Positions 15,879 through 18,244 of a stretch of 50,306 nucleotides of DNA are shown here, one piece after another. Under the pieces are notes generated by a model. The model did not search any database. It was not told where the DNA came from and saw only the letters and a program-made list of their open reading frames with translations. The number at the start of each line of letters is the position of its first letter. Position 1 is the stretch's first letter. This stretch comes from Actinomycetota bacterium (GTDB lineage Bacteria > Actinomycetota > CADDZG01 > JAHWKV01). The DNA lies in assembly GCA_035759705.1 (NCBI GenBank), contig DASTUJ010000178.1, positions 1-50,306 on the forward strand. The letters run 5' to 3'. A program made the position numbers and the translations under genes.

Positions 15879-15888
15879 TGATCTCACG

Positions 15889-15959
15889 CTCCGGGACAAG
15901 GATTCGAACCTTGACTAAGGGATCCAAAGACCCTGGTGCTGCCATTACACTATCCCGGA
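15889..15959 (-). tRNA. tRNA-Gln (anticodon UUG)
   Basis: 71 nt, read on the minus strand. Acceptor stem TCCGGGA pairs fully with TCCCGGA, with discriminator G and no encoded CCA. D-arm GTGT/GCAC. The anticodon loop is CTTTGGA, giving UUG for Gln. T-arm CAAGG-TTCGAAT-CCTTG is perfect. The anticodon stem AGGGT/TCCCT has a T-T mismatch at its loop-closing pair. It lies 10 bp ahead of glmU, probably on the same transcript. Confidence 0.95.
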
Positions 15960-16052
15960 ATAGGCGGGTGGACGCCCCTCCCCTACATTTAACACCGTCG
16001 TCGCCTGCTTCCGGCCAACTAAGGCGATTGACCCCGCTGTGGGAAAAAACTA

Positions 16053-16072
16053 CTCTCGTTAGAGTGCGAGAG
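16053..16072. promoter_or_regulatory. Inverted repeat between tRNA-Gln and the sortase-like gene
   Basis: Arms CTCTCG and CGAGAG separated by eight bases, in the 161 bp gap between the divergent tRNA-Gln and sortase-like genes. It could be an operator serving either side. Purpose unproven. Confidence 0.25.
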
Positions 16073-16120
16073 GTCTCGGAACTGGCTTTATCCAGGCGGC
16101 GGTCACCTTGGAACCTGTTG

Positions 16121-17332
16121 ATGGCTTCCCTTGGCTATATCGGCGCGGGCACCCGGCGCCTCCACCTACCGGACATGCGGATGCCGTACATCGGGCTCCC
16201 GCATCGGCTCCGGTTCCACGTCCCCCACGCCCGCGGCCTGATTATTTCGGCGTTGCTGCTTGGGATGGTGGTCACCATCGCGTCGGCCACCGGGCTGCTT
16301 GCCCTGCACCGAACCGACGCGGTCGAGGAGGCCGCCCAGGAGGCGTTGCGCCGGCAGTTCATCTCGGGCCTGGTGGCTTCTCCGCTCCAACTCGAAAGTC
16401 AACCGGCCGCCGAGGGCAGCGTCCCTGCGCCGGTTCAGTTCGTACCAGAGCAACCCGCCCCTGTACCCGGCACCCCGATCGCCCGGCTGCAGATCCCTGA
16501 GCTGGAACTCGACAAGATCGTCGTCCAGGGCACCGGCACCTCCGAGCTTCGAATGGGCCCCGGCCACTACCCGGGAACGGTGATGCCGGGAGAGGGTGGA
16601 ACCTTCGGCGTCGCCGGGTACCGGGCCACCTACGGGGCGCCCTTCATGAAACTCGACAAGCTGAAGGCAAAATCCCTCATGTACGTCACCACCTCGGAGG
16701 GCATCTTCGTCTACCAGGTGGCCGGCCGGCGAACCGTCGCACCGAGTGAGAGCTCGTTCCTGGAGTCGGACGGCACCGAGCGGCTGGTGCTCACCACAAC
16801 CGCCCCGTCGGTCGACGACAGCAAACGCCTCGTGGTGATCGCGGAGCTCAGAGAACACTCGGGCCGGGCCAAGGCACCGGTCCAGCTGCCCGCCGGGGAG
16901 CCCGGCGCCGGTTTGACCGAACAAGAGCAGATCATCGACACCTTTGAGCTGAACCCTCTGGGCCGCCTGGCCGCCACCAACGTAACTCCCAGCACCCCGG
17001 TGGCGCCGCCCGCCCCCCCGGCCCCGGCGCCCGCTCCTGCACCCGCTCCGCCGGCCGACCAGGCACAGAACCCGGCTCCGGCGCCTCCTCCGCCGCCTCC
17101 CCCACCTCCCCCGGCGCCGGTTGCGCTGAACCCGCCCCCGGCCTCCGCGCCACAGCCCGCACCGGCTCCGGCACCGCAACCGACGGGGCCGGTACACCGG
17201 AGCCTCAACCCGTTCGCCCCGGCGTGCCGGAACGGCTACGACGACGACGGAGACGGACTTATCGACTACCGGTCACTGGACGGCGAGCGCCAGGACACCG
17301 GGTGCAACGGCGAGAACGACGACGACGAGTAG
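16121..17332 (+). CDS. Degenerate sortase-fold membrane protein (catalytic His and Cys replaced)
   Basis: 403 residues from ATG at 16121; the frame is open further upstream but runs through the tRNA. One membrane helix (38-62), then a class E-like sortase domain (about 118-250): ARLQIPELELDKIVVQGT, GPGHYPGTVMPGEGGTFG, AGYRATYGAPF and LVLTTTAPS followed by SKRLVV. Active sortases read GHR at the first catalytic site and TTC at the second; here they are GYR (Y167) and TTT (T227). Only the Arg region remains. A Pro/Ala stalk (about 285-365) follows, and the end carries CRNGYDDDGDGLIDY, an Asp-rich calcium-binding-like motif closed by a second Cys. Transpeptidation is not expected; a binding or scaffold role is inference. 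Confidence 0.8.
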   Translation: MASLGYIGAGTRRLHLPDMRMPYIGLPHRLRFHVPHARGLIISALLLGMVVTIASATGLLALHRTDAVEEAAQEALRRQFISGLVASPLQLESQPAAEGSVPAPVQFVPEQPAPVPGTPIARLQIPELELDKIVVQGTGTSELRMGPGHYPGTVMPGEGGTFGVAGYRATYGAPFMKLDKLKAKSLMYVTTSEGIFVYQVAGRRTVAPSESSFLESDGTERLVLTTTAPSVDDSKRLVVIAELREHSGRAKAPVQLPAGEPGAGLTEQEQIIDTFELNPLGRLAATNVTPSTPVAPPAPPAPAPAPAPAPPADQAQNPAPAPPPPPPPPPPAPVALNPPPASAPQPAPAPAPQPTGPVHRSLNPFAPACRNGYDDDGDGLIDYRSLDGERQDTGCNGENDDDE

Positions 17333-17338
17333 CGGGCG

Positions 17339-18244
17339 CTAGCCCTCCAGCAGCTCGGCTCCAGCGGTAGTCCCCGAAACGACCTCCACGCGCTGGAACG
17401 CGCCGGCGGCACCTGTGGCCACCTCTTGGGCGTGCGCCTCGTCCCGGCAGAGCCCGATGATCGCGGAGCCGCTCCCGGTCATGATCGCCCCGAGGGCTCC
17501 GCTGTCGGACATCGCCCGCTTCAGCACCTTGAGTGACGGCATCAGGTCGAACGCGGCGATCTCCAGGTCGTTCGCCAGGTTGCCTGCGATTGCTTCGACG
17601 TCGCCGGCGGCCAGCGCGGTGATCAGCGCAGCGGCGCTGCCCGCCGGCCGGCCGTTTCCGGACGGGCGGCCCCCGGTGGGGACCATCTCGTCGTAGTGCT
17701 GGTAGACCTTAGGCGTGGAGAGGGCGCCTTCGGAGATACCCAGGACCCACCACAGGGTGGCCGGGCTCTCCAGAGGACTGAGGACGTCACCGACGCCGGT
17801 GGCCAGTGCCACCCCTCCCTTGAGGCAGAAAGGAACGTCGGCCCCGAGCCGTCGGGCCAGCACGTCGACGTCGAGCGACCCCGCGCACTCCGGCCCCTCG
17901 AGGCGGGTCAGCCCCACGAGGGCGGCCGCAGCGTCGGCGCTGGCTCCTCCGAGCCCGGCCCCGACGGGAATCCTCTTTTCGACTGTGATCGACGGGCGCT
18001 CGGCACACTTCAGACGTGCGGCGGCGACGGTGCGCTGGACGATGTCCGGTGCGGCCGGAATCGGCCCGTCCAGGCCGTCGGCCCACTTGATGGCCACCTC
18101 GGAGTGCTCCGCCGGCTCGATGGTCAGCGTGTCGCCGAGGCTGATCGACTGCATCACGCTCTCCAGTTCGTGATAGCCGTCGGGCCGCCGGCCGACGACC
18201 GCCAGCCACAGATTGACCTTGGCCCGGCCGATAGTCTTTATCAC
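17339..18244 (-). CDS. ispE: 4-diphosphocytidyl-2-C-methyl-D-erythritol kinase
   Basis: 301 residues, a GHMP kinase of the MEP isoprenoid pathway. Marks: RAKVNLWLAVVGRRPDGYHEL at the N-terminus, with the substrate-binding Lys and the family's RPDGYH segment; the ATP loop PVGAGLGGASADAAAAL; and the C-terminal IMTGSGSAIIGL glycine motif. The GTG start overlaps the rsmA stop (GTGA). The rpfB-rsmA-ispE order is conserved in Actinobacteria. It ends 6 bp from the convergent sortase-like gene. Confidence 0.95.
   Translation of the reverse strand: MIKTIGRAKVNLWLAVVGRRPDGYHELESVMQSISLGDTLTIEPAEHSEVAIKWADGLDGPIPAAPDIVQRTVAAARLKCAERPSITVEKRIPVGAGLGGASADAAAALVGLTRLEGPECAGSLDVDVLARRLGADVPFCLKGGVALATGVGDVLSPLESPATLWWVLGISEGALSTPKVYQHYDEMVPTGGRPSGNGRPAGSAAALITALAAGDVEAIAGNLANDLEIAAFDLMPSLKVLKRAMSDSGALGAIMTGSGSAIIGLCRDEAHAQEVATGAAGAFQRVEVVSGTTAGAELLEG

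Follow-up and report, generated by a model that had tools for sequence, protein, structure and literature searches.

The locus described here raises the question of whether a gene that encodes a recognizable sortase domain, and that has lost both the catalytic histidine and the catalytic cysteine, is decaying or encodes a maintained pseudoenzyme. It lies in the window, a stretch of 50,306 nucleotides on a contig of an Actinomycetota bacterium (C178, DASTUJ010000178.1). The genome of the window, referred to as G000, is a 3.0 Mb draft in 225 contigs, and orthologs of the gene are present in two genomes of the same genus, G001 and G002. The explanation favored here, with a probability of about 0.6, is that the gene encodes a maintained pseudosortase: a class E-like domain that was recruited into a surface-stalk system and has no anchoring function. 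This explanation rests on three genomes.

The gene and the parts of its product

The features of the locus, in positions of the window, are the following.

15888..15959, minus strand: tRNA-Gln (TTG), the divergent neighbor
16028..16056, plus strand: candidate promoter TTGACC-N17-TACTCT, conserved in the alignment of the three orthologs, with a weak second hexamer
16064..16120, plus strand: probable N-terminal extension of 19 codons beginning at GTG 16064, VREVSELALSRRRSPWNLL
16121..17332, plus strand: pseudosortase gene with the ATG start as given, an intact open reading frame of 403 amino acids
16232..16315, plus strand: predicted transmembrane anchor, approximately residues 38-65, N-terminus inside, hydrophobic stretch GLIISALLLGMVVTIASATGLLAL
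16457..16870, plus strand: sortase-fold domain, residues 113-250, placed by profile and PDB sequence matches, AlphaFold2 and Foldseek
16559..16570, plus strand: PGHY, residues 147-150, from the alignment of orthologs
16619..16621, plus strand: Tyr167 codon TAC at the catalytic His position (GYR), from the ortholog alignment
16799..16801, plus strand: Thr227 codon ACC at the catalytic Cys position (LTTTAP), from the ortholog alignment
16826..16828, plus strand: codon of Arg236, the third catalytic residue, kept in the three orthologs
16943..16990, plus strand: linker motif FELNPLGRLAATNVTP, residues 275-290, after the sortase domain, nearly invariant
16991..17206, plus strand: Pro/Ala-rich stalk, approximately residues 291-362, varying in length and sequence among orthologs
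17207..17329, plus strand: acidic, Cys-closed tail CRNGYDDDGDGLID...CNGENDDDE, conserved more strongly than any other region of the protein
17339..18244, minus strand: ispE, the convergent neighbor

The coding sequence likely starts at GTG 16064-16066 rather than at ATG 16121. This start is favored because the 57 in-frame bases between the two codons are free of indels and partly conserved in the alignment of G000, G001 and G002, and because the reading frame of G002 opens just ahead of the codon matching GTG 16064. The sequence TTGACC-N17-TACTCT is a lead only as regards the promoter of the gene. Its second hexamer reads TAGCCT in G002, a consensus promoter scan upstream of the gene found none, this sequence included, and on the minus strand the same positions (16028-16056) read as a terminator-like site.

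Within the protein, the predicted anchor overlaps a helix (residues 38-81) that appears at low confidence in a full-length AlphaFold2 model; this model, built from three sequences, had a pLDDT of 37.8 and was otherwise useless. The linker that follows the sortase domain is identical at 15 of 16 residues across the three genomes.

Catalytic positions, fold and substrate groove

The Pfam Sortase family (PF04203) matches residues 123-243 at 6.5e-23, covering model positions 1-124 of 125. The best NCBIfam model is class_E_sortase (NF033747), at 103.3 bits and under its cut-off of 160 bits, and the top matches of a PDB sequence search are class E/F-type sortases. A preliminary description of this DNA had proposed a class E-like sortase gene, otherwise intact, in which GYR replaces GHR and TTT replaces TTC. 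Both codons read as it described, and the 403-residue frame, the Pfam match and the retained Arg236 bear out the remainder.

The catalytic His position is occupied by Tyr, Phe and Tyr in G000, G001 and G002, respectively (GYR or GFR), and the Cys position by Thr in all three (within TTTTAP in G001 and G002). The trio retains 26 of the 36 near-invariant sortase positions in every member. The domain holds no cysteine, as both cysteines of the protein (369 and 395) reside in the tail. Its single conserved histidine, His149 of GPGHY, is Gln in G001 and is thus unable to replace the missing catalytic residue; no alternative active-site His or Cys was found in the domain. Judged from its sequence, the domain cannot perform the Cys-based sortase reaction, since it has neither the cysteine nucleophile nor the catalytic histidine.

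In an alignment of 45 sortase domains, His, Cys and Arg are kept in all 41 of the other domains, the trio and an unrelated gene (L011) being the exceptions. Among 396 genomes of the phylum, G000, G001 and G002 are the only three to contain the pattern G[YF]R.TYG.PF. Three other sortases are encoded by G000, each with GHR and TTC, and they are counted among the 41.

A sortase fold of the domain is predicted with confidence. AlphaFold2 modeled residues 100-258 with a pLDDT of 89.9 from an alignment of 45 sequences, most of them active sortases, an input that favors the sortase fold. The top Foldseek matches of the model are the sortase E proteins of Thermobifida fusca and Streptomyces avermitilis (E 3.5e-14), with SrtE1 of S. 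coelicolor close behind; the best matches include the class E structures 9m2g, 5go5 and 5cuw.

Studies of S. coelicolor SrtE1 have reported that hydrogen bonds from Tyr229 and Arg329 hold the substrate, that the S3 site consists of Ile215, Leu221 and Ala249, and that the S4 site includes Val296, Val298, Leu299, Thr318 and Ile331 (PMC5148588). When these positions are mapped by way of conserved motifs and an alignment to 5go5, the P3-contact residues Tyr229, Leu221, Ala249 and Arg329 correspond to Tyr150, Leu143, Ala165 and Arg236, all of them invariant in the trio. Tyr150 is the class E β3/β4-loop tyrosine that reads Ala at P3, and it is retained even where His149 has become Gln. Leu214, Thr225 and Val238 are likewise kept in the motif mapping, and the equivalents of Leu299 and Ile331 stay hydrophobic. 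The Val296 equivalent is Ser, Asn and Asn, and the Val298 equivalent Phe, Ser and Ser, in G000, G001 and G002; active sortases are mostly hydrophobic at the two positions, and nearly all of them at the second. From these residues, it looks as if the P3 end of the groove is kept and the leucine pocket is changed. The earlier suggestion that the protein binds sorting substrates is in keeping with the first of these features and sits poorly with the second. As the leucine pocket looks changed, the best explanation is not made to rest on the binding of sorting signals.

Orthologs, genomic setting and selection

Full-length matches to the family profile were obtained in three of 24 genomes of the class, all of one genus. 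The G001 and G002 proteins are 62% and 56% identical to that of G000, with the same architecture, and their genes occupy the same tRNA-Gln/ispE site. No stops or frameshifts occur in the three genes; all three genomes are draft assemblies. No close relative with GHR and TTC was found at this site. Among close relatives in a genome-contig database, the one match was the record of G002 itself, and a search of a viral contig database gave no match. In a tree of sortase domains, the trio is monophyletic on a long stem branch. The tree does not place it firmly among the active sortases: it groups with a row of long branches, and that grouping is weakly supported.

The preliminary description had placed the gene inside a conserved housekeeping block, a view that the comparison of genomes does not support. 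The block of ispE, tRNA-Gln and glmU is itself old: the three genes are adjacent in G003, G005, G006 and the outgroups, with gaps mostly of ~130-330 bp, and only G000, G001 and G002 carry the pseudosortase gene there, as a genus-level insertion. No ortholog is present in G003, the remaining one of the four genomes of the genus (97% complete, 7 contigs). Its ispE-glmU gap of ~234 bp contains solely tRNA-Gln, and no clear trace of a pseudosortase remnant was found there. From this comparison, the gene would either have entered the old block as an insertion or have been lost secondarily in G003. The genus tree does not resolve the placement of G002 and G003 relative to G000 and G001, and it does not separate a gain by the trio's ancestor from a loss in G003.

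Among the class genomes examined, other insertions interrupt the block in G004 and G007, two further genomes of the order. Each has an HTH_23 gene beside tRNA-Gln in the ispE-glmU interval (L055 2680-3558 in G004; L056 2933-3880 in G007, the latter inside an insertion of ~7 kb). The interval thus seems to acquire foreign genes repeatedly.

The dN/dS of the sortase domain in the trio is 0.28 at a dS of about 1.0-1.2 (Nei-Gojobori), against 0.06-0.10 for the active sortase A, B and C orthologs of the genus, all of these figures being rough as dS is near saturation. The ratio exceeds that of the active paralogs by a factor of about three to four, and part of the domain may be little constrained. 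The domain is ~60% identical across a dS of about 1, and the stretch near the active site, GTFGVAG[YF]R.TYGAPF, is nearly invariant and among its best-kept parts. The tail is 83-88% identical in the three genomes, with a dN of 0.07-0.12. In a rough neutral simulation, 0.3% of copies remained stop-free at a divergence of 1.0. Taken at the codon level, the comparison points to purifying selection on the domain that is relaxed but real. Shared losses in three genomes, purifying selection, a confidently predicted fold and active sortases elsewhere in the genome speak for a maintained pseudoenzyme and not decay, as had been proposed at the outset.

The stalk system and competing explanations

The tail matches the NCBIfam family acid_disulf_rpt (NF033662) at 8.4e-5 and 22.2 bits, the cut-off being 41. 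This acidic module is matched ten times in G000 and repeatedly across the genus, G003 included; none of the matches in the genus lies above the cut-off. Two modules stand directly before the LPRTGG motif of a protein encoded beside an active type C sortase in G000 (contig C164, L067 5433-6551), and the same conserved LPRTGG surface protein with two modules is found in G002 (contig C132, L062/L107). This protein and the adjacent active class E-like sortase are a good candidate for an enzyme-substrate pair.

The module also occurs in clusters of short, single-pass membrane proteins, in which a head in the cytoplasm is followed by the helix, a Pro-rich stalk and either one or two modules. Such clusters lie on C209 and C42 of G000 (L098, L103, L121), C223 of G001 (L097), C64 (L096) and C35 of G002, and C4 of G003 (L099, L104). 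A Pfam scan of three of the cluster proteins gave no family, and the clusters are possibly an undescribed family of surface stalks. The plan of the pseudosortase is that of a stalk protein with a dead sortase domain placed between the helix and the stalk. The link to the stalk system is drawn from one short module that matches below the family cut-off. Contig C4 of G003 also carries a 518-codon open frame (L058 317-1870) with an active type C sortase domain at its C-terminal end; the part upstream of the domain is without a Pfam match.

Under the maintained-pseudosortase explanation, the product would be a single-pass membrane protein held in place by the helix at its N-terminus. Close to the membrane would lie the dead sortase domain, which may act as a non-cleaving binder of partners, a scaffold or a platform. 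The Pro/Ala stalk would span the wall and so display the Cys-closed acidic module outside, along with the similar modules of the stalk proteins and the LPRTGG protein. The pseudosortase would have been recruited into this system and would itself anchor no proteins.

Among known systems, the class E sortases (SrtE1 of S. coelicolor, 5CUW; S. avermitilis, 5GO5; T. fusca SrtE, 9IOK) are the closest. They share with the pseudosortase the fold, the N-terminal membrane anchor, TYG.PF, LTT..P, the substrate tyrosine and the catalytic arginine, and they provide its best HMM, phmmer and Foldseek matches. Unlike them, the pseudosortase is without the catalytic His and Cys, has polar residues in the S4 pocket, and adds a Pro/Ala stalk and a Cys-closed acidic tail after the domain. 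The tail, C-x-N-G-x-DDDGDG-x-x-D ... C, resembles the acidic double-disulfide repeat proteins of NF033662, but it is one partial repeat under the cut-off, with approximately five more residues between the cysteines, and is fused to a sortase domain. A sortase-like gene of G008 (L011 1147-2286) has also lost both residues (GRR, LTTS) and kept the Arg, but it falls outside the trio in the tree, has different neighbors and is without the acidic tail. It is located on contig C20 at ~507-510 kb, flanked by the genes of a PstS-type, PBP-like protein and of a PstC-type ABC permease. Its loss is apparently independent, and its genome has several other sortase matches, one of which, when aligned, keeps GHR and TTC. 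Pseudopeptidases and other pseudoenzymes, the subject of two reviews (PMC11266112, PMC10211241), likewise have lost catalytic residues and a fold maintained by selection.

The rival explanations differ in what they make of the domain. It may be a non-cleaving receptor that binds LPxTG/LAxTG-type signals or cell-wall stems, an adaptor or decoy that would retain, present or shield active-sortase substrates. The invariant P3-contact residues and the presence in G000 of an active sortase whose LPRTGG substrate bears the same acidic module are consistent with this, but the residues at the Val296 and Val298 positions make leucine binding doubtful, and the receptor role is considered unlikely. The domain could also be a leftover under weak constraint, with selection acting solely on the anchor, the stalk and the acidic tail. 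The raised dN/dS relative to the active paralogs, the long stem branch and a tail better conserved than any other part all fit such a history. However, identity has been held at ~60% across a dS of about 1, the active-site stretch and 26 of 36 near-invariant positions have been kept, and random loss does not readily give a Thr fixed at the Cys position and an aromatic residue always at the His position, so that a mere leftover is improbable.

An enzyme with an altered mechanism, for example one in which Thr227 is the nucleophile and is aided by Arg236, would account for the fixed Thr and the kept Arg. It lacks a conserved general base, as Tyr or Phe occupies the His position and the Phe of G001 is incapable of this role; no sortase is known with Thr as its nucleophile, and the proposal is very improbable. 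A fourth rival, an error of sequencing or assembly or else a recent decay of the gene, has in its favor that all three genomes are drafts. It was rejected, since the orthologs share the losses: the same changes recur in separate genomes at 56-62% protein identity without stops or frameshifts, and few copies would stay open under neutrality, which leaves it a negligible chance.

For the maintained pseudosortase, a wider reading is offered tentatively, with the odds well against it. It would be the first clear pseudosortase family: a dead class E domain that receives or organizes sorting signals or peptidoglycan stems without cleaving them and is linked, through its acidic Cys module, to a genus-specific surface system of stalk proteins and a sortase-anchored partner. 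No published inactive or pseudo sortase was found in the literature searched, most subscription papers being outside that search. Most enzyme families are known to include inactive relatives, or pseudoenzymes.

A maintained pseudosortase would be evidence that the barrel of sortases lends itself to non-catalytic reuse, and it offers a natural setting in which to ask whether pockets of the sortase type serve as non-cutting receptors at the cell surface. For annotation, it is a warning that a match to the Pfam Sortase family does not equal a working sortase. The family of stalk proteins with acidic Cys modules may be undescribed, and could prove the larger story.
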